DNA of 64,000 bases, taken from contig NC_088910.1 in NCBI RefSeq assembly GCF_963576675.1, positions 88,356,104 to 88,420,103 on the forward strand, written 5' to 3'. Positions 4,379 to 49,400 of this stretch are shown in pieces. The position numbers and the translations under genes are program-made. Source of the stretch: Euphorbia lathyris. Taxonomy: Eukaryota; Streptophyta; Magnoliopsida; Malpighiales; Euphorbiaceae. Each line of letters starts with the position of its first letter. Positions within the stretch are counted from its first letter, which is position 1. Below the pieces are notes generated by a model. It was not told where the DNA came from. It searched no databases and was given only the letters and a program-made list of their open reading frames with translations.

Positions 4379-6180
4379 TGCGGGCTGCCTTACTTTGATT
4401 CAGTCTGTCAATTGTGCGGTTCCTAATCATATTATCCAGGCTTGTCGTCTGCCTGAGCCTGTTCTCAAAGATCTTGATAAAATTAATCGTCGTTTCCTGT
4501 GGGGGGAAGCTGAGGAGGGGAGGAAGATTCACCTTGTTCCTTGGAATGAGGTTTGTCAACCTAAGAATATGGGAGGTCTGGGGATTAGGAAAGCCAGAGA
4601 TAATAATAAAGTGTTATTAATGAAACTTCTGTGGAGAATGTGGAAACTTCCGTCAGCTCTTTGGGTTCAATTATTATGCGGTAAATATAGAAAGGATAAG
4701 ATTTTTGGGGGTCCTAAGGAGAGAGTGGTTAATTGTTCTTTTCTTTGGAAAGGCCTTAGTGCTGTGTTTTCAGAATTTTGCTCTGGGATTGGGTGGAATG
4801 TGAGAAATGGTAAATCTATTAACTTCTAGAATGATATCTGGATTGGTAAAAAGCCTTTATTAGAGGTTTGTGAGTCATTACCGCCTTTAGAAATTCAGAA
4901 CTGGAGGATTGCAGATGTGGTGGATTCTGAGGGTGATTGGATTTGGGCGAAGTTTGATTCTTACCTCAGTCTGGAATCGCTCCTGAGAATTAGAGGAGTT
5001 CAGATTAGTAGCAAGGAGGAAGACATGGATAGTTACTGTTGGTCTTTGACAAACAACGAGGCTTTTTCTTGTAAATCGGCTTTTGAGGCTTTCAATCAAG
5101 GGTTGGAAACTTCGCACCCAGAGTTGTGGAAGACGATTTGGGCCTTAAAAGTGCCTTACCGTATTAGGAGCTTCCTGTGGCTAGGTGTTAAAAATAGGTT
5201 GCTTACTAATTCTGATAGGAAAACGAGGCATTTGGTGGAGTCTAAAGCGTGTAGTAGATGCAGAGGGCATGAAGAAACTTTGTGCCATGCTCTCAGAGAC
5301 TGTGCGAAGAGTAAAGAGGTGTGGAAAAAAGTTCTCCCTATAAAGTTGTTGTCTACTTTTTTATCCTACTCTGATCTTGATTGGTTTGTGGATGGGGTTA
5401 GTGGGAAGCTTTTGGCTGATCTAAAGCATGGTGTCCTCTTATTTGTGGTTGTCTGTCATCAGATTTGGAAATGGAGGAATGAGGAGATTTTTGGAGGAGA
5501 TACGGTTGTTATTCCTAATGTTTTTGATTTCTTTTCCAAAAAGATTTGCACATTTGTTGATAGCTTCAAAGAGGATTCCTCAGCTAGGGCTATTCAGAGG
5601 AAAGATGTCCACCTCTTAGGCTGGTGTAGACCTACTGAAGGTGTGGTTAAGTTAAACACTGATGGCTCCTGTCTAAAGGACGGGAGAATTGCCGTGGGAG
5701 GGGTTCTAAGAGATGATGGTGATGGTTGGGTTTCTGGTTTCTCTCAGAATTTGGGTATGAGTTCTTCTTTTTCTGCGGAACTTTGGGGGATTTTTTCTGG
5801 CCTTAGGCTAGCTAAAAATATGGGGGTGAAGAATCTTCTTGTGGAATCTGATAACCTCGAAGCTGTCAGAATGATCTCGGAGAATAATGCTATTTGCTTG
5901 AATAGCCAAAATTTAATAAAAGGGATTAGAAGGATTTGTTCTTCCTTTGATTCTTTTAGCTTCGGTCATATTTATAGGGAGCAAAATCGGGTGGCGGACC
6001 GCCTTACGGCTGAAGGTCATACCAGGATGTTGGGTCTCTCAACCTTTTCTTCTCCTCCGGTTTTCCTTTCGTCTCTGATCTTGGATGACATGGTGCGAGT
6101 CAGCTTTCCCAGGCTGATCCCGGGTTAGGCGGCTTTGTTTGTTTGTTTTTCTTTCATTTCCTACCAAAAAAAAAAAAAAA

Positions 6181-36189: not shown

Positions 36190-36209
36190 GTTCCACCTTC
36201 ACCGCACCA
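36190..36209 (-). other. Candidate primer-binding site
   Basis: Two to three bases after the LTR end (reading on the minus strand) comes TGGTGCGGTGAAGGTGGAAC. A TGG start complementary to a tRNA CCA end in this position fits a primer site. I did not identify the tRNA. Confidence 0.55.
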
Positions 36210-36211
36210 AT

Positions 36212-36702
36212 TGATGACTAGTGGAGAATTTTCGATTGACTTCCGTCTCTGTGGGGGTGTCGTTGGGTTCGACGGAGCTCCGATGCCAAAGTCAGTATAG
36301 AAGAACAAGAGAGCAAACTGAATTGACAAAGGGTGAGTGTATATGTACCTTGATAGCTCGAGATACTAGCTATATATAGTCATGAAGTTGTAACCTTTAG
36401 TAACTAGAAAGTCTCCATTAATGCTCCATTAATGGCGGTTTCGGGTTTCCTTTAAACATGTCCGTTAGGAAATTGATTGCTTATTAATGGTCTTTATTGC
36501 GGGACCAGTTCAGCTGTTTCAATAGCGGATTGGGCGGTTATGGCGATTCGCCTCGTAGGTTCGCCCGCGGATCTCTTGTGGTGAGATGTTGGTGATCCGC
36601 CTGTCGGATCCCTTTGCTTAATGCACCGTGATACTCCGGTATTAGGTGATCAACACGTGGCGCTCTAGGCGAATATCCCTTTTGATCCTTGGGATAATAT
36701 CA
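36212..36702 (-). repeat. 5' LTR of the gypsy element
   Basis: About 491 bp, bounded by TGAT and ATCA. It lies directly outside the primer site and contains several GGCGAA and GGATCCGCC-like words. The outer end is chosen from the TG...CA rule and the return to AT-rich coding sequence, not from a second LTR copy, which is missing. Confidence 0.6.
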
Positions 36703-37351
36703 TTATGTTATCATTTATGTTGCTGGATGAAGCAGAAAGTATGTTTGAGGAGAATGATTTACCTGTATGAATGAATACATTTGTTGAGAATATTTTTATG
36801 AAGTACAGAGTGAGGAAGGAAAAGAGGATGAGCCAGCGTTCCGAGCGAATGGCAACAAGTCAGCATTCAGGAAAATTATTTAAAGAATCTGATGAGGATA
36901 ATGATTTTTTTAATCTTCCTGGTTTTTGGGAAGAATATAATGTTGTTGATGAAGAATACAACAAGCATGTAGAGAGAAAGAGAGCTGAAGGTTTAGAAAA
37001 AGAGAGAGGAGGAGCAGAGAAGGAGAAGAAGAAGAAGAAGAGAGGAGTAGTGAAGAAAGTTAGAGGGAAAGTAGAGTCAGCTGAAGGACTGAAGTTGAAA
37101 ATAAAGATGAATTCTGCTCCTCAATTTGAGTTGTTAAGCCAGTCCTTAGCTGATGAAGCTGTTTCATCTGAAATGTAATTTATTTTGTTGGAATAATTCG
37201 TTATTTTTGTTTTAGAGCAACTTAATTAATATTTGTGAATTAATTGATATTTTATGTTGTTTGTAGGCCTGGTGCTTTAGTTTGTATAAATGAACATCAA
37301 GGCGATGAGGTTGTTGATTGTACTGGTGAAATTGTGTAAGTGATTATGTGT

Positions 37352-37402
37352 GGAACAAATGGTTCAGTTGTTTAGAACCTTTCTTATTTATGTGTGGAAC
37401 AA
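37352..37402 (+). repeat. 22-bp-period repeat, array 1
   Basis: GGAACAA at 37352 and 37396 with AGAACC at 37374, 22 bp apart each. It lies in the intron before the Asp-rich exon of the ULP1-like gene. Confidence 0.65.
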
Positions 37403-38497
37403 TGTATTTTTTTTGTTATATATTTGAGTTGTTTTATATTTTCAACAGTGATATCGATGATGGAATTGAGACAGAGATGTCCGATGATGATGATGATGAT
37501 GATATAGACTTGGAGTCTTTGCCTGAAGATGTTCCAGATGAATTTGCAGATATGTGCAGATGGGTTAACAAGTATGTATGTCATGGGAGGACAGTTTTCA
37601 CCACTTTTGAAGATTACATTTTTGGTCATGCGGTGAATGCATGAGGTAATAGGGTGTGGCCCAATTGTTTAGTACATGAGGTATTTTTTTAATCTATGAT
37701 TCCATGTTTGTATTAGTGATTATATTTTTTTTTTGAATGGCATGTTTACTGTATATGTTTTGTGTGTGTGTTGTACATGCACCTCCATAATGTGATTCTG
37801 AATAACGATAGATTGGATACCACCTTCTCCCTTGTTGATCCAAACAGAACTAATAAATTTGAAAGAGTTAATACGATAGAGGAGAAGATCAAGTTTTTGA
37901 CAGAGAGATATGAACAGTGCGACATCAAATGTTTGTATCTGATACCGCGAAACAAACAGTATGCATTATTTATCTATACTGATGATTTATTTTATTTGGT
38001 TAATAATGTATTTTAGTTGTACTAATGTGTTTGTTTTCTTAAGGTATCATTGGACTTTGACTGTCGTTGATCTTGAGAGGAAACGTGTTTTTCTGTTGGA
38101 TCCATTGAAATCTCGTTTGGGCGTGGAAAAAGATCAATAGAGATTTGTTGTTGATGAGTATGTTTAATAATCAAATGCCTTTTTATAATGTATTTTATTT
38201 TTTGAATGCAATAGTTTGACATATATATGAATTTTTTTTGTAGATCTATTAATTCTTTTTATCATCAGAAGTTTTTGGTACAATGGATTTGCCTTGTGCT
38301 ACGTCTTTAATTTGTATGTATATTTGTATATTTGTATATTTTTGTTTTATTGTTTTTAAGTCGTTTGTATTTTATTTTGCAGAATATTCCAACTCAGACG
38401 GATACCACAAGCTGTGGTGATTATGTAATGAAATACATGCGTGATATAGTGTTTGAGAAAGTGTTGAAGATTGATAATATTGTAAGTGTTTATTCTT

Positions 38498-38563
38498 TGA
38501 ACAATTGGTGTTTCTTCTTTGAACAATTGGTGTTTATTCTTGGAACAATTAGTTTTAATATAT
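38498..38563 (+). repeat. 22-bp-period repeat, array 2
   Basis: TGAACAATTGGTGTTT at 38498 and 38520, and GGAACAATTAG at 38542. It lies in the intron after the catalytic Cys exon of the ULP1-like gene. Confidence 0.85.
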
Positions 38564-39173
38564 GACATGTTGAAGTTATAGTTTTGATGCATATTTTTAA
38601 TTGTGATATTCTTTTTAGTGTGATAAGGATCGTAGGAGGTTAGGATACAGTATAGATGTGTTAAACGAATTACGTCGAGATTTGGGAGAAATTGTTTTGA
38701 AATGTGGTGTTGATAATGAAAATGGTGAAGGAGGGCGTGTAAAGATGACTGTTAAGGAATCTAAGTACCTCCGTTCTCCTTTTATTTCTCGGCATCCAAA
38801 GTTGCTGGAGAACATCGATAGTCGTAAAAGGAGAATTGTTGAATTTGCACTTAGTCCTGGTGAAAGCAGGTAAGAAGTTGAAGTTATGTTGTTAGATGAA
38901 TTTATATGTTATTTTGGCATATACTGATAGTTTTTTTCTTTGTTTTGAAGTGATGTATTTTTTAGTGATGGACAAACGTTTATTGATAAACATGAGATAT
39001 TATCACTTTCTGGCAATGATCATCTTGTCAATAATGTTGTGAATGCCTGGAGTTCAATTTTGAACAGTGAAGAATTGAAGAAATATAATGGAAAACTGAA
39101 AAGATTTTTTCTCACAACCACTTTATATACATCATCCATTTAATAAACATCATTTTATTAAACAAATTGTGTT

Positions 39174-39366
39174 GGAACATAGTACTAATTATGTTGGAAT
39201 GAGAAATGAATTTAGATCACATTAAAGTAATTAAAAAGAATGTAACTATTTCTGATGGAACAATTTAATATTTATTACGGAACAACATATGTATTCGGTT
39301 TGAACAATATAGTTAAAGGAATGGAACAGATTATGTATACCGTTGGAAGAATATAAGAGTATATCC
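39174..39366 (+). repeat. 22-bp-period repeat, array 3
   Basis: Units start at 39174 and 39196, then at 39257, 39279, 39301, 39323 and 39345 (GGAACAA, GGAACAA, TGAACAA, GGAACAG, GGAAGAA). The array is intergenic, after the last ULP1-like piece. Confidence 0.88.
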
Positions 39367-39894
39367 AATGGATCAGTAAGTTTGCTTTTGAGGCTTCTTC
39401 CTGTAAAATAGAAAATGAAATGATATAGTTACATTTGTTTCAGTAATAATGGATCAATAAGTAATCACTGTTTGTTTGAATATAATATGTTTCATTAAAG
39501 TTGTAATTGTTAATAAAATGAATACATATTTATTTTAATCTGATTTTAATTCATCCTCTTTGCAATAATAAATAAATGAGGAAATAATTACTGATTCTGA
39601 TAATTTATTATTAAATTTCAATTAATATAGGAAATAATACCAATAGTTTAAGAGACTGATTAACAGATTTATTTTAGTTTGCATTTAATAAAAAATTTGA
39701 TATATGTAATAATCTTAAGACTGCTGAGATTCCCAATATACATTTATTTTGAATGAAATGGCGTGTTTCATTGTAGAAAAAGTAGAATTTGAAGAGACTC
39801 AATAAATTAAAGCTGTTGAGATTCCCAATAGATAATCATTTGAATGAAAGAAAACGTGTTTGACAGTAGGAAGTTGAAGAGACTAAATAATATT

Positions 39895-39904
39895 CTATAA
39901 ATAG
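39895..39904 (+). promoter_or_regulatory. TATA box of the 114-codon ORF
   Basis: CTATAAATAG lies 55 bp upstream of the ATG at 39959, a good plant TATA sequence at a plausible distance for a short leader. Confidence 0.6.
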
Positions 39905-39958
39905 TATCGTTCTCTCTATTGTTCGTATTTTTTTAGTAGAAGTTGAATTGAAGCAAAG

Positions 39959-40303
39959 ATGTCAGGAAGCAGTTCGAGTTCTTTGAAGAGAAAGAGGTTT
40001 TCTTTTCCTGTTGAACAATCAGTACGTAAAGCAGGGAGTGAAATTCCTGATGAGCTATTTAAAGTTATTGAAGATATGGAGGAAACTTTTATGGAAGGGG
40101 ATATTGACGACATCATAAAGAAGCTGAAGGGCATGAAGGCTTTCATGTCTTTATTTTGTGACTCAATGATGTCTTTCATTGAGAAAGGAGAGGAGGAGAA
40201 AGCGGAGTTGAAGGAGGAGCTGGAGGAAGTGAAAATGAATCTGAAGAACAAGATTCAGCAATATAACAATGAGATTTTAAGTCCTGATAATGATTTTATT
40301 TAA
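39959..40303 (+). CDS. Small coiled-coil protein of unknown function, element-borne, intact
   Basis: An unbroken frame of 114 codons starting at ATG 39959. The N end is Ser-rich with a basic patch (SSSLKRKRFSF) that could be a nuclear localisation signal. The middle has DELFKVIEDMEETFMEGD, and the C half is a Lys/Glu-rich helix (EKGEEEKAELKEELEEVKMN) with heptad-like spacing, probably a coiled coil. No domain is recognised. It lies between the ULP1-like gene and the transposase in an intron-free stretch with its own TATA box. It is the only unbroken gene in an otherwise decayed element. It could be a regulatory protein of the element. It might also be chance that a short frame survived. Confidence 0.6.
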   Translation: MSGSSSSSLKRKRFSFPVEQSVRKAGSEIPDELFKVIEDMEETFMEGDIDDIIKKLKGMKAFMSLFCDSMMSFIEKGEEEKAELKEELEEVKMNLKNKIQQYNNEILSPDNDFI

Positions 40304-41785
40304 TATTTTTTTTATTGTGAACAATTGTTTTGATTTTTATGTTTGCATGTTTTTTATGTTTATGTTTTTATGTATTTTTTTATTTAATGATATATTTTGT
40401 TATGTTTTTACTTATTTCTCCCAGAAGTTGCTTTTTTTTACTGCTATATATTATTGATGTCCATATATTATTAATGTAAACACATGTTGTTCGAAATTAA
40501 AACACAGGTTTTTGAAATGAAGTCAAATAAGTAAATATACTGCTAGAGGAAAGAAAGTTTAGACATAGGGAATTTACCTTATTTTTTTGCTTTTTCTGGA
40601 CAGTTTCTAATGTCGTGGTGGCACAATTGATTACAACCTTTGCACATCCTTTGTTTTTTCTGTGTTTGTTCAATTGCTTTCTCTTTTTCTCCCTTCAATC
40701 TTTTCTCACTGTTTGTAACATGAATCCCAGTTCCTTTGTTTTTTGAAATTTTAGGTTTTTTGATTATAACTTTAGAGGGCCGACTTGTTCCAACCAACAT
40801 CTCTATGTCTTGAATTTTAGTAGAATTGTTGATGTTCTTTCTTTTCTTTGCTTCCAACTTTGTCCTCAATGCTTAAATGTTTCTTGTGAGATTATTTAGG
40901 TCCTCTTCATCCCCTTAAGCCAAGCACACAGTCATGTGAATCTCAGACCATAAGTTATTCAACATTATTTTCTTACCCATTGTTCTAGCACATTCTTCTA
41001 TAACATTATTTTGCAATGTTATCTCTGGTAAGATTTTCCATCTGTTTAGGACATACTGCTCAGGAATTCTCTCCAGCATTCTATCTTTCCATACGAACAC
41101 CATATGTCTACAAGGAATTCCTGCTCTATTGAACATCTTGCACGAACATCTTGTGTCACTGTTGTCTGTATTATAAACAACCTGATATGTTGTTTTTTTT
41201 TACCTTTTTCCCTTACAATGATTATGCATTTATCATTGTATTTCTGTATATCATCAACTCCACAGTTAAAGGAAGCATCTAGCACTTGTTTTTAAAATTC
41301 ATAAAAGATTGTTCTTGTAAATACTTCTGATCCATGTTTTTCAATAGGAATTGGTGTTTGAGATATAGGTATTGAATGTTTGGAATCATTGTCATTTTTA
41401 CCTTGTGCATGTCTTTGTGCTTCCATTGCACCCTCAAACCGGAGGAGGAATTCTATGAGAGTTAAATGACTTTTTGTGAAAGAAGTGAAGAAGTGATTTT
41501 CACTTTCTGACCTTGATGTTGTTCTCATTAAGCCGACTAGGAATGAGTCTCTGAAATAAGCAGGAATCCATGTTGATCTTATATCATACATGTGTTTCAG
41601 CCATCCATGTTTTTCTAAATTGAATTCCAAAATTATTCCCATCCATTTTTCCTCAAACTCTTCTGGTTCCAATTCTACACTCCACACGCAAAAATTTATC
41701 TTTGTGATAAAATTTATTTCTTGCATTATTTGTCGTCCTGTATTAGTAACAAAAGAGTTTTAGAAGAAATTGAATGTATGTATAT

Positions 41786-41873
41786 TGAACAACACATATA
41801 TTCTGTAGGAACAATTTATGTATTATTATGGAACAACACATGTATTATTTGGGAACATTTTATTTATTAAATG
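41786..41873 (+). repeat. 22-bp-period repeat, array 4
   Basis: Units start at 41786 (TGAACAA), 41808, 41830 (GGAACAA) and 41852 (GGAACAT). The array is in an intron of the transposase pseudogene, which reads on the opposite strand. Confidence 0.88.
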
Positions 41874-42234
41874 GATAATAGAAAATAAAGGGCATAGAAT
41901 GATTTTTCATACCTATTTTGTCTGACATCTTCTTCATAATGTGCCACATGCAAAATCTGTGTTATATTTTTTTTAAAACATTTTTTATTGCAACTATCAT
42001 TGCTGGATCTTGGTCTGTTATCAAGCAAGTCGGCTCATTATTGTCCATTTCTTTGAGAAATATTCTAAAAACCCACTCAAATGATGTAATATCTTCGTTA
42101 GCCACAAAACAAGATGCAAATGTAATACATTTTTTGTGGTTGTCAGCCCTAGTAAATGGTCCAAATATCATATTGTACCTGTTCAGTGTAGCATAAAAAT
42201 AAGTTTTTTGTTTGAAGAACATGACATTTGTATT

Positions 42235-42278
42235 GGAACAACATAAGTTTTTTGTTGCAACACCAGTATATGAAGAGC
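42235..42278 (+). repeat. 22-bp-period repeat, array 5
   Basis: GGAACAACATAAG at 42235 and GCAACACCAG at 42257. It lies within the intron between the TTYSTN and NMIFGPF exons of the transposase. Confidence 0.6.
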
Positions 42279-43290
42279 AGAAACCAATAATTTTATGTCA
42301 AAGATTATTATGTAGTACATGTTTGTGCTATATGTGGTGTCAAATGAGACCATATCACCATAAAAAGCATAGTTTCTGATACATACATGGTCTGCCCATA
42401 AAGCTTTACAGAATCTGCCATCTTGATCTACTTCAAATTCGAAAAATAATGCACTCCATAACTCCTTTTTTTTCTATATCTACGAACATTTGTGCATTTG
42501 AATCCTTAATATAGGCTTTCAAGTCTATCTGAAAGTTTTTAAAATCTATCTTCGATGCACCAATATTTTCATATCCTCCATAAAGTTCCTTTGCTTGTCT
42601 ATAAGTTTTCAGAGGACCAACATTCATCTATTCAACCAAATGAGATTTTTTATTTTTAGATGAAATGAGCAAAATTATATAACTAATCAGTTTAGTATTT
42701 ACAATGGATAACTATTATGAAGAAGATGGTTTACCTTTGCATTATTAACTACCATCTTTTTTAGTAGAAGGTTCATGTTCCTGCCCTCCTTTTGATATTG
42801 TACACATCCTGGAGTGTAAAGAATATGATTATGTTCTTCTTTGAACTGTGTAACTTCATAGATTCCATTGTCAGAAAGTTTGATAATCATTTTAGCACTG
42901 CATCCTATACGACTGAGTGTCCTTTTTTTGGTTTTTACATCACTGGATGTCGCTTTTTTCTGTGATATTTGTAACCTTCTTTATTACATATAAAAAATTG
43001 TTCTTTTATAACACCTTGTTTTTTTCTTGATGTTGATACCCTACTACTAAATCCAGCAGCACATGCATATGATTTGTAGAATTCTTGAGCTTTATCATAA
43101 TTCTGAAATATCATTCCAAGAGCAGGTTTTAACTCATTTGAACAATTAGGCACCCATAATTTTGTTCCGTTAGGACTGAGTCTTGTAATTACTTCTGGTG
43201 TGTAAGGTACAATTGCAGTAGAAGAGTAACTAGGCGAAAGCAAATCTACAAAACAGGTAAGAGAATCGAGATTAGGACAAAGATGTACTT

Positions 43291-43378
43291 GAAACAAATG
43301 GTACATTATTTCGGAACAAACCATACATTTATTTGGAACAATTGAGCCATTCATTTGGAACCAATGATATAGTTACAT
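43291..43378 (+). repeat. 22-bp-period repeat, array 6
   Basis: Units start at 43291 (GAAACAA), 43313 and 43335 (GGAACAA) and 43357 (GGAACCA). It lies in the first intron of the transposase. Confidence 0.88.
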
Positions 43379-43523
43379 GTCAACTCTGAAATCAGCTATT
43401 ATTCAATAAACTTCCATTGTGTCACATTTTTATATCTTTAACCAAATATCCTAAAACTAATCATAGCTATTATTCAATGATATAGTTACATGTAACAAGT
43501 GGTACAATTTGTTAGAATTTAGA

Positions 43524-43832
43524 CTACAGTTTTTGTGAATAATTAGTGTAAGAAATCTATTATCAAGACAGTGAATAAATTGTTAATGTAAACAGATGTC
43601 AATATTTTCAATATATAGCAGATATAATTCATTCGGAACAAACCATACATTTAGTAGGAACAAACCATATATTTAGTAGGAACAAATGGTAAATTCAGTT
43701 GGAACAAATGATATAGTTACATTGAACAACTGGTACATTCAGTCTACAGCCTTTGTGAATAATTAGTGTAAGAAATCTATTATTAATGTGAATAGATCTC
43801 AATATTTTCAATATATATCAGATAAATTTCGA
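43524..43832. repeat. Direct duplication, offset about 220 bp, in the first transposase intron
   Basis: A segment with GTGAATAATTAGTGTAAGAA and ATATTTTCAATATAT occurs at 43524-43630 and 43744-43832. The offset, about 220 bp, is ten times 22 bp. Confidence 0.75.
43635..43744 (+). repeat. 22-bp-period repeat, array 7 (best conserved)
   Basis: GGAACAA at 43635, 43657, 43679 and 43701, then TGAACAA at 43723. The first units share GGAACAAACCATA and ATTTAGTA, giving the clearest consensus. Confidence 0.92.
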
Positions 43833-43949
43833 GTTGCAGATATAAGCAAAATACCAGAAGATGATGTTGTTCTGTGTGTCATTTTGGACTGATTATGGTC
43901 TTCATATTCCATATTTTGGTGTTCGGATTCCATATTCAGAGTAAATTAT

Positions 43950-44170
43950 ATGAATACAGATGAGAAATCGATCGATAATGTTGAGGATAAGAGAATCGAC
44001 CAGTAATGTTGAGAGAATAAAATCGATCGATAACTCAGAGGAGAAAAAAATCGATCAATAATGGTGAGGAGAAGAAAATCAGAGATTAATCTGAATACAG
44101 ATTACAAATCGATCGACAATGGTGAGTAGAAGAAAATCGATCAAGCATGGTGAAGAATGAACTTTGATTC
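43950..44170. repeat. Clustered ATCGATC-type motifs in the subterminal region of the Mutator-like element
   Basis: AATCGATCGATAATG and near copies (AATCGACCAGTAATG, AATCGATCAATAATGG, AATCGATCGACAATGG, AATCGATCAAGCATGG) recur at irregular spacing upstream of the transposase. Repeated short motifs in the subterminal region often bind transposase. Spacing is irregular, unlike the 22-bp arrays. Confidence 0.7.
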
Positions 44171-44319
44171 GCGCGTTTTTTGTGTGAGGAAGGCAGGAGA
44201 ATGAAGTTGACGCGTGTTTTTTTAATTGAATTTTGTTGCCAAAACTACGTAGTTTTGTTATGTCACACAATAAGCTTCTTGTCGCACCGTAAGCTCTTGT
44301 CACACTGGATCTCATCCCT

Positions 44320-45027
44320 ATATATATATATATATATATATATAGTAAAACATCGATAAATAATAATTTTCTTTGGTCCCGACTTGGACTAATAGGATAA
44401 ATAATAACCTCGTTAAATGCATAAGATAATAATTTAAAAAAATTCATTAAGACTCACTGAAAATATAAAATAATAATTCATTAAATACATATATAATTCA
44501 TAAAATAAAGCACTTCCTAAACCTTTTTATTTCAAATTTTATGCTTTTTTAAAATATGTCTGTATAGGCAATTGTTTCTTCTTTTCATGTGAACGGAACT
44601 CAATTTCATCTTTAACTTTTTGGATGACATAAACTATATTCGACAATAAACCTGTCACAGGATTCACTATCGTCTGATGATACTTACGGTTGCAATCTGT
44701 CATCTAAAATAACTTAGACGACAGTAACCAAATTGCTACTTATATGACAAATTATTTAATAATAACTGTCACCGAATTTAAGTTCTCATAAGACTGTGTT
44801 TAAATAATGTGTCATATTTATAATTAAAATAAATTATACATAAAATAATAATTTGTGGCAACTTTTGGAGTCGCTTAGCATTTGAGCATTTTCTAAAAGA
44901 AGGTTGCCAAAAAGAATATTAATGAAAGAAAAAATAAAATAATATATTTTAAAATAATGTGTTAAATTTTGACAAATTTTAAAGTTGCAAAGTTGCTTGC
45001 ATTTGGAAATACTCTAAATAATTGGTC
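44320..45027. other. (TA)n run and AT-rich gene-free spacer
   Basis: A (TA)n run at about 44320-44342 flanks the end of the Mutator-like element. Next, TAAAACATCGATAAATAATA and GATAAATAATAACCTCG look like a decayed copy of a plant MITE with GTGAAACCTCTATAAATTAA termini. No gene is seen. Confidence 0.4.
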
Positions 45028-46422: not shown

Positions 46423-49400
46423 TCACTTGGATATCCTATTTGGATTCACACTAGGGCCATCTTTACTGAATACCCCCCATTTTGGTTGTTCTCTGCCATC
46501 ATCTCTGGGTCCTTGGCTGCCTCCAAATCCTCCTGTGTTTGAATTCCCGCCCAAATTATTCGGTTTTTCTTCAGTGTTGTTATTGACTTGTGATGCTACA
46601 CCTTGTTTTCCAAGAGTACTTGACTTCATATTGCTAAATATCCCATAGCTAGAAGGCTGAGCATTGGGAGGATTAGGAAGATTATTTCTAAAAGTAGAAG
46701 AATCAGTTTGAACTGGTTTCCTTTCTCCCATTGCAGTAGAGGGATTTATGCCCAACTGTGTTTTCCCAGTTGCGAACTGTGGTGGCGTTATCCTGAACGA
46801 ATCTATCCTATAAGGGGCTCTATTCTCCCTTGGCGGAGTAGGTGGCCGTTCTCTCCCACTTTGATTTGAGAACTGTGGTGGTGTAATCCTGACAGATTCC
46901 GTCCTATTAGGGGCACTATTATCCCTTGACAGAGTCGGTGGGAACTGTTCTCTCCCAATTTGATTTGAGAACTGTGGTGGTGTAATCCTGAATGAGTTCG
47001 TCCTATCAGGGACACTGTTATCCCTTGACGGAGTTGGTGGGAACTGTTCTCTCCCTCTTTGATTTGAGAACTGTGGTGGTGTAATCCTGGATGAGTCCGT
47101 CCTATCAGGGGCTCTATTATCCCTTGGTGGAGTGGGTGGGTACCGTTCTCTCAGTTCACTTCTTTTATACCTGTTTTCAGCTTCAAATGACTGATGTGGC
47201 GAGGAAGGAACTCCCACTTCTGGCGAAACTGGAATATTTTGTGTGTAATTAAGACTAGGCTCCTTGCCATCACCTTTGACATCAAATACTGTGTCAAAAT
47301 CATCAACTGAATCAGCAACAGACCAAGCATTTTCACTATCTTCATTAGTAAGACTCTCATCTTCAGTTTCGGCGCCAGATTCTACAGAATCTTCTTCAAC
47401 CATATCTGAACTTCCAATAGGACCAGAATGGCTAGTGGAGACTTTTCCAGCAACCTTCATTTTTTTTGCACCACCTTTCTTTGGTCCAAACTTAGCATGC
47501 CTAACTACAACAAATGCTTGTTTTTTCTCTGCCCTTGGTCCACTCTCCAAAATATATTCATCTCCAATCTGTAGAAAGTTGAAGATCAATAGCAAGTATT
47601 ATCACTTAATACCACGTAAGAACAATCAATGGCAGAAAAACAAGATAAAAAATGAAGAAAAATAAGCAGTACCAAAGCTGTGAGACGGGATAGAACTTCT
47701 TTCAATCTCTCTTTTTCTTCTTCTTCTTCTTGTCTTCTAATCTCTGCTATTTCCTGCTCAGTTAACTCCTCACCACCAGAGCTCTTCCACGACGCTGCTC
47801 TACCACCCTTTTTTGGTGAACCTACAGCCATACACTGACCCACAGAATTTTTTCTTTTTTCAATTTCAAGAATAAAGAGAGGCTTCCTAATTTCTTTGAT
47901 AATTAATAGTTCACTGTAAATATTAGAAGCATCTATAATCAAAGCACAATTTAACATGAGTTTCTACAGTAAACCAAAAATACTTTATCAGACATTCAAA
48001 TAAAATATTAACTTCCAATTCCATTTTCACGAATATAAAGTGACTTAATATGCACACTATTTTTTGCTACTTTCAACCAAGTTTCTGAAATTGATACAAA
48101 CGTGAAATATCATAATGAAAATTGGTTAAAATTGATAAACCAAATAAATGCATGGATTATTGTAGACATTTATTTTTATATAGAAACAAGATCAATATGT
48201 CAAACTAACAAAACATGAAATAAAAACCAACTTTTCCATATGTTCCATTAATCATGTAAACTAGAAGCATCCAATAATGCGAAGATGTTTTATGATAGAA
48301 GCCAGTAGTAATGGAACATGCTCTAGTATAGAAGAGAGAAAATACCTTGACTCGATAACCACGCTCCATCAACCTCACAACAGAATCTGCTTTCATTTTT
48401 AAGTCTTTTAGTTCCTGAAAGCAGAAGGCTTAATTAATTTCAGAACTTCAATAATCCACAAGACAGGACTTTAGGATCTCTTGATTGCTCTTTTATTCAA
48501 ATGTAAAATATCACAATTAATTTCAGAACTTCAATTATCCACGGGACAGAACTTTAGGATCTCTTGATTGCTCTTTTATTCAATTTTAAAATATCATAGA
48601 TGGTCTACTGATATTGCAAAGATAATGATACAGAACAAGTTAGTAGTAGGCCAGTCTTGGCCCATTTTACTCCTGCTCCCTAAAGTGTGTGTGGGGAGTT
48701 TATACTAGAAGGCCCAAGGGTAGAAGGGCAAAGGGGTGTGAGCTGGCAAACTTAGTTATTGCCTTGGGAGAAGAAAAGTTAGTTATATTACTGTGTGTGT
48801 AGGGGTGAGGTGTGACTGATGGTCCCATTTTTGGGCTCTTAGTTTTTCAGCTTTGAGAGAGAGACCTTCCCTAGAAATCTTCTTTTGAGTATTCTGTTAC
48901 GTATCAGCGTAAGAGTAAAGGGATCAAATAAGATATTTGCCTTCAAGTTAGTTTAATTAGTTATCAGCATCTTTATTTGCTCTTATATGTATTTTTGGTT
49001 TCAATCTATTTCTGCTGAGTCATATTTGTCCTGTAGCTAGCTGTTAGAAAGGTATCATTCTATTTCTGCAGTGAGTCACATTTGTCCTGTAGCTAGTTGT
49101 TAGAAAGCTGTTTTTCCAGCTGGCACAACTGTGGAAATGGTACTATCTGTTGCATCAGGTAGTCCTTTCTTATTCTATAAATGTAGTGCTTTGTAAGGAT
49201 GAAGGATCATTGAAGAATATACAAATATCCTACTTATTCCTTTCTACTTCTGTCTATCTTTCTCCCTATTCTCCTATCTTTCCCTTTATTCCATTCTAAT
49301 TCTATTTCTCAGAGCTATAATCTGACATATTCCTTCTATCAATATATCAGTTCTTCTTCATCTTTCTATTTTCTGGTGTTTCGCTTGCTTATTGTTTGTT

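Follow-up and report, generated by a model that had tools for sequence, protein, structure and literature searches.

The closest described systems to the one treated here are the VANDAL transposons of Arabidopsis and their VANC proteins. VANC21 binds the motif YAGTATTAY, which is found in one orientation and at high density in the introns, intergenic segments and terminal parts of VANDAL21; its target arrays arise by tandem repetition and differ among related elements, and VANC6 uses other motifs that are present also in the unrelated AT9TSD1 (PMC5735166). DUF1985 is one of the two domains shown for VANC proteins, the other being DUF287 (PMC5735166). Here, we analyzed a 64-kb stretch of the Euphorbia lathyris genome (contig NC_088910.1, positions 88,356,104 to 88,420,103; referred to as the window) that contains a copy of a Mutator-like element (MULE), the window copy or W. 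Its introns and spacers hold arrays of the motif KGAACAA (K being G or T) repeated every 22 bp, which look like a parallel of the VANDAL/VANC targets in another MULE lineage. We think it quite possible, without claiming it as probable, that these arrays are target sites for a binder encoded by the element itself, with anti-silencing as the likeliest effect.

The resemblance to VANDAL/VANC includes dense short motifs in tandem form within introns and intergenic segments, a varying copy number, a motif that differs between related families, a putative encoded DUF1985-type protein (a weak match here) and a stronger conservation of the transposase than of most accessory pieces (PMC5735166, PMC10398659). 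In contrast, the motif is KGAACAA or DGAACAT here and YAGTATTAY or AGTTGTCC/AC there, and our family, known from sequence alone, has a strict period of 22 or 21 bp and (TA)n flanks. Its DUF1985-like domain is encoded together with Ulp1 domains by one gene, and a domain search of the encoded protein in two fuller copies (E18 and E21) found no DUF287. The transposase, with FAR1, MULE and SWIM domains, fits by its domain content the Jittery dicot/monocot group rather than the VANDAL group (PMC6446971). In their (TA)n flanks, and in having an autonomous element accompanied by short non-autonomous relatives with common terminal repeats, our elements resemble the TA-targeted MULEs MuTAnT (PMC4486113) and SaTar/AgS-MULE (PMC5907723). 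AutoMuTAnT likewise has a Jittery-like transposase. It is, however, described as having one open reading frame and 4.9 kb (PMC4486113), while the autonomous copies here span 12 to 15 kb with Ulp1-type and 114-amino-acid (aa) protein genes added. Within the available text on MuTAnT and SaTar/AgS-MULE, we noticed no report of internal motif arrays (PMC4486113, PMC5907723).

Regularly spaced arrays in the window copy

GGAACAA is found 30 times on both strands of the window, compared to an expected mean of 12.6, and none of 100 shuffles reached 30. The original prediction, made from the window sequence, held that 14 exact copies lie in the element, all on the plus strand; 14 are indeed found there (37352 to 43701), but two on the minus strand, at 40785 and 43162 and both in predicted exons, had been missed. 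The 28 positions that it listed comprise 14 exact words, 3 decayed sites (AGAACCT at 37374, GGAATGA at 39196 and GCAACAC at 42257) and 11 sites that differ by a single base, TGAACAA in 5 cases. The exact spacing that it described was confirmed, since KGAACAA units are precisely 22 bp apart within clusters located in separate introns and spacers between 37352 and 43729. In the element, 13 KGAACA pairs at this lag lie on the plus strand and none on the minus strand, and the window outside the element has none either; 2,000 dinucleotide shuffles averaged 0.004 such pairs and never gave more than 1. Tandem Repeats Finder, which is blind to the motif, detected repeats of period 22 in five parts of the element, and in four of these (38486 to 38557, 41787 to 41869, 42199 to 42262 and 43621 to 43713) the consensus contains GAACAA. 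The consensus of the fifth (40478 to 40518) lacks it on the plus strand; the reverse complement of this short repeat looks like a decayed array unit.

According to gene models built from splice signals and homology, without RNA, 23 of the 29 plus-strand KGAACA sites in W fall outside predicted exons. All the arrays are on the plus strand. Two lie in introns of the Ulp1-type gene, A1 at 37352 to 37403 (three units in register, one of them decayed) and A2 at 38498 to 38549 (three units). The spacer between this gene and the 114-aa gene holds A3a (two units, one decayed) and A3b (five units) at 39174 to 39351. Among the transposase introns, one contains A4 at 41786 to 41858 (four units), the one directly preceding the MULE-domain exon contains A5 at 42235 to 42263 (one exact and one decayed unit, with a weak unit at 42213), and intron 1 contains both A6 at 43291 to 43363 (four units) and A7 at 43635 to 43729 (five units). 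That introns hold most arrays would fit a signal at the RNA level, either a splicing enhancer or a source of small RNAs. We consider this highly improbable, as the plus orientation is kept in the introns of two oppositely transcribed genes, whose RNAs would therefore carry opposite sequences.

Array positions in two fuller copies

Two fuller copies, E18 (C1:13227807-13240163, 12.4 kb, loci L018/L030) and E21 (C1:16060856-16075533, 14.7 kb, loci L021/L029/L041), have the same gene set and order as W. Arrays are thus present in related copies, as had been predicted; in both they are on the plus strand only and mostly at places matching W, with differing unit numbers. Transposase intron 1, with two arrays in W, has a single 5-unit array in each of E18 and E21, and the A3 intergenic segment, with one copy in W, has three copies in each. 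E21 has lost one unit of A2, an array that is partially decayed in E18. Neither copy has the exact unit of A5, and both possess an extra plus-strand array near the left end, presumably within intron 1 of the Ulp1 gene. Over the left 4.3 kb (the DUF1985-like/Ulp1 side), E18 and E21 are about 14% different, while two other long stretches differ by 5 to 6%, a pattern that would fit an exchange of the left part.

The main rival to a functional explanation is minisatellite drift, in which a 22-bp unit of single origin spread through the element by slippage and segmental copying and serves no function. We take it seriously but find it doubtful. Array-bearing segments of approximately 0.4 kb are duplicated in both E18 and E21, and some array segments, including their flanks, are common to the E18/E21 intergenic arrays and to transposase intron 1 of W and look copied between sites. 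Because array segments with their flanks are common to several sites, duplication explains part of the dispersal, and the argument of the original prediction that a minisatellite spreading by slippage cannot account for separate sites has to be qualified. Drift accounts less well for the location of the arrays outside predicted exons and for a single core and an exact spacing that are kept though the spacers diverge.

A sister subfamily with 21-bp arrays

A genome search with the transposase gave at least 216 matches (150 of 1,403 candidates scored), of which, by eye, approximately 100 were listed at 82 to 97% identity and approximately 50 at 63 to 66%. We refer to the latter, with a transposase identity of about 65%, as the sister subfamily, and four of its approximately 50 listed copies were read (L043, L045, L046 and L047). 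In L043 (9.9 kb), the transposase pieces are 49 to 74% identical to ours and the Ulp1 pieces 31 to 56%; in this stretch, which ends within the Ulp1 gene, neither the 114-aa protein nor the DUF1985-like query found a match. It has zero KGAACA pairs at 22 bp. Instead, there are GAACA arrays with a period of 21 bp, with six pairs on the strand opposite to the transposase (the mean of 500 shuffles was 0.006 and the maximum 1) and three further period-21 pairs on the other strand. The 17 units of L043 comprise 12 that read DGAACAT and 5 that read AGAACAC or AGAACAA.

One of the four opposite-strand arrays of L043 lies upstream of the exon encoding FAR1, another in the intron that precedes the MULE exon, a third in an intergenic segment and the last in the Ulp1-gene intron matching that of A2. 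W has its arrays in places of these same kinds; the two other arrays of L043 are intergenic. The array before the MULE exon is also present in the short stretches read from L045, L046 and L047 (3, 2 and 3 units, respectively). The motif therefore differs between subfamilies, KGAACAA every 22 bp in one and mostly DGAACAT every 21 bp in the other (four of four sister copies read), and, since the sister arrays occupy equivalent places, related elements seem to retain the sites while changing the motif edge and the period. Drift of a single unit predicts this poorly.

A host transcription factor might also bind the arrays as internal enhancers of the element genes, in which case the binder would not be encoded by the element. 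Regular arrays of a short motif in noncoding DNA fit an enhancer, and an element-encoded binder is itself putative, yet the difference in motif and period that separates two subfamilies of one genome would be more readily explained if the reader had changed too. The carriers described below bear on this as well: none of the protein pieces of W was matched in 17 of the 20 array loci checked, which nonetheless bear arrays. On balance, we regard a host factor as unlikely.

Genome-wide distribution and carriers

The pattern GGAACAA-N15-GGAACAA is found at 5,117 places (2,457 + 2,660) in the 1.02-Gb genome, compared to 19 (12 + 7) for a reversed-pattern control. The 15 longer spacings from N16 to N30 together gave 2,197 (1,127 + 1,070) versus 431 (210 + 221) in the control, and most of the pairs listed for them came from recurrent sequences in which the spacing is 33 or 30. 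Among KGAACA sites in W, E18 and most of E21, all 50 intervals of 15 to 30 bp equal 22, and in the other loci 75 of the 96 intervals of 13 to 30 bp do so.

To identify the carriers, we took the first 100 of the 5,117 places, which form 30 clusters by our own grouping and span 0.75 to 29.4 Mb of C1, one chromosome arm. The original prediction had named beforehand a search for whether arrays are limited to related elements, and in this sample they are: all 30 clusters belong to the MULE family, either as autonomous copies or as a non-autonomous family of approximately 2 kb with common termini (28 non-autonomous, 1 autonomous [L021] and 1 with both [L018/L019]). L026, L027, L035 and L036, together with single arrays in L016 and L039, were below the threshold against the reference copies; the first four align with other family members over about 700 to 1,080 bp, and the arrays of L016 and L039 are covered too. 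L026 and L027 are 97.6% identical over 3.9 kb, so the 30 clusters are not all independent. At locus L042, a DUF1985 gene and a sampled array lie approximately 7 kb apart; the gene was considered as a linked binder and dropped because no in-register KGAACA pair is near it and the non-autonomous element starts approximately 6 kb off.

In two non-autonomous copies of approximately 1.9 kb (L024 and L017), the left and right termini match those of E18 at 90.5 to 92%, and the arrays, with the element ends as reference, point the other way from those of E18. An array upstream of the transposase in L044 is by eye close to the non-autonomous L036 and has the reversed orientation, which suggests that the non-autonomous family derived from an L044-like element. 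At L019:2155-5797, a non-autonomous copy abuts the right end of E18 inside a common TA run.

The retention of arrays and common termini by non-autonomous copies, L024 and L017 among them without ATCGAT repeats, would be expected if the arrays were subterminal binding sites for the transposase during transposition, and this protein does carry a FAR1 DNA-binding domain. Their location speaks otherwise. In-register pairs span 0.06 to 0.96 of the length of E18/E21 rather than lying near the ends, and those of L024 and L017 are at 0.31 to 0.60. No GGAACAA was seen by eye in the terminal stretches compared (E18, L024 and L017), and the autonomous copies possess separate subterminal repeats with ATCGAT. 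A role as transposase sites is thus very unlikely in our judgment.

Proposed function and candidate binder

The explanation that we favor is that the arrays are cis-acting target sites of one MULE family flanked by TA microsatellites. The element would encode, or would once have encoded, a sequence-specific DNA-binding protein recognizing the GAACA core. Many sites in introns and spacers, set at intervals of approximately two helical turns, would allow dense loading of this protein on its own element and on the non-autonomous copies, and the loading, by analogy with VANC on VANDAL, would strip or block silencing marks. The most likely binder would be the DUF1985-like/Ulp1 protein, followed by the 114-aa protein. 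The VANC-like role raised in the original prediction gains from the divergence of motif and period in the sister subfamily and from the DUF1985-like domain of the two fuller copies. In the choice of binder, the 114-aa protein that it had put forward gives way to the DUF1985-like/Ulp1 protein, a better candidate in our view, whose N terminus is lost in W.

Variation was compared between the core and the spacers. Over six regions that match among W, E18 and E21, variable columns amounted to 4 of 94 in the core versus 52 of 287 in the spacers (P = 6e-4) and versus 129 of 998 in the flanks, which include exons (P = 0.012); the spacers were in turn more variable than the flanks (P = 0.03). Among non-autonomous repeats, at loci chosen by exact pairs, the minor-allele rate was 0.006 in the core and 0.042 to 0.046 in the spacers in three overlapping sets (P of about 0.06); a small set gave 0.014 versus 0.024 (P = 0.49), and a fifth had too few hits. 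Purifying selection on the core is suggested rather than established, because the core/spacer tests disagree and the choice of arrays was biased.

Several points weigh against the proposed function, and the first concern these same comparisons. The arrays for the test on W, E18 and E21 had been chosen in W. Between arrays, the GAACA positions are 80 to 100% identical and the spacers 43% (58% within arrays), but the units compared were chosen by their core, which inflates its conservation. Between E18 and E21, the difference was not significant (6 of 130 core versus 23 of 389 spacer columns, P = 0.66), as drift would have it. The array segments that share their flanks between intergenic spacers and a transposase intron belong here too. 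Array orientation is mixed, with 2 of 12 pairs reversed in an L044 stretch and 3 of 9 in the sister copy L043; the single orientation originally described holds in W, E18 and E21 and fails in these two. The DUF1985 match in E21 scores 24.9 bits versus a Pfam cut-off of 35.1, and the match in E18 alone has an E value of 0.052. None of the five relatives of this domain in other plants matches DUF1985, and two match PMD weakly. DUF1985 is, moreover, very common in the genome (150 of 1,063 candidates scored, with the listed matches all above the cut-off), and the match therefore does not single out VANC. Finally, the second copy of the 114-aa gene is slow evolving, with a ratio of nonsynonymous to synonymous substitution rates (dN/dS) of 0.22 to 0.26.

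The N-terminal domain of the Ulp1-type gene, lost in W, matches only DUF1985 in Pfam (E18 and E21), with E = 2.2e-5 in E21 over profile positions 18 to 140 of 141; a shortened 246-aa stretch of the E21 domain had no Pfam match. The five relatives are proteins of spinach, quinoa and Euphorbia peplus; the transposase, too, has some of its closest hits in these plants. Peptidase_C48 was matched by the Ulp1-type gene at E = 2e-8 with a query joining L018 and W exons. At L018:1600-3300, there are two Peptidase_C48-like stretches, one at E = 2e-8 (mixed query) and the other at 2e-4 (L018 query). Known MULEs that carry an Ulp1-like coding sequence include the Kaonashi type. For the 114-aa protein, no homologue was found (seven candidates, none at E ≤ 0.001). 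A structure model from its single sequence, with a mean predicted local distance difference test score (pLDDT) of 76, consists mainly of a long C-terminal helix and gives no function; the model of a related protein (P0123) had a pLDDT of 34 and was set aside.

The transposase has a dN/dS of 0.16 to 0.38, a range that omits the MULE piece, which has no clean frame in W. Values were 0.28 to 0.90 for pieces of the Ulp1 gene, with one short piece at 0.11, and 1.1 to 1.6 for the first copy of the 114-aa gene, resting on 3 to 5 synonymous changes. Most accessory pieces therefore show a higher dN/dS than the transposase.

Structure of the element in the window

The window copy is left truncated and degenerate and extends from 36714 to 44344, where its right end is the (TA)n run at 44319 to 44344. 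Homology to E18/E21 begins at 36714 to 36716 and continues to the right terminus; to the left 2.7 kb or so of those copies, the window matches only in terminal-repeat-like pieces, arrays and one 34-bp stretch. A different dispersed repeat (36200 to 36712), with a copy at L017:2103-2611 (83%), adjoins the truncated side. The 3' part of the DUF1985-like/Ulp1 gene (36771 to 39143, plus strand) is broken by an in-frame stop and in places is shorter than in E18. It is followed by the 114-aa protein gene (39959 to 40303, plus strand), of which there are two copies in L018, L021 and L044, and by the transposase gene (40579 to 43930, minus strand), frameshifted in W, which matches PF10551 (MULE, E = 8e-13), PF03101 (FAR1, E = 8e-7) and PF04434 (SWIM, E = 3e-8).

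Approximately 6.4 copies of a 28-bp subterminal repeat with ATCGAT, separate from the KGAACAA arrays, occupy the interval from 43965 to 44144, which lies between exon 1 of the transposase and the right terminus. ATCGAT clusters subterminally in E18 and E21 too, with none in the non-autonomous L024 and L017. The right terminal repeat (44240 to 44318) is matched by the termini of non-autonomous copies at 75 to 93% identity. Flanking (TA)n was found at the right end of W, both ends of E18, the right end of E21, both ends of L024 and the transposase-side end of L043. Outside the element, a 99-bp tandem repeat (3.9 copies) is located at 46770 to 47152.

Implications for transposon biology

As far as we could find in the available literature, sequence-specific anti-silencing by transposons is documented only for the VANDALs of Arabidopsis. 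More cautiously than for the arrays as target sites, we suggest that the family described here may be a second such system outside the VANDALs that diversified separately. It would be characterized by period-locked arrays, by a motif and a period that switch jointly at equivalent places between subfamilies, by a DUF1985-like/Ulp1 fusion as the reader and by a large non-autonomous family that shares it. The two subfamilies, which differ in motif and period at equivalent places within one genome, represent a natural experiment on the joint change of transposon and motif. If this explanation is true, noncoding minisatellites inside transposons would be worth reading as functional landing sites.

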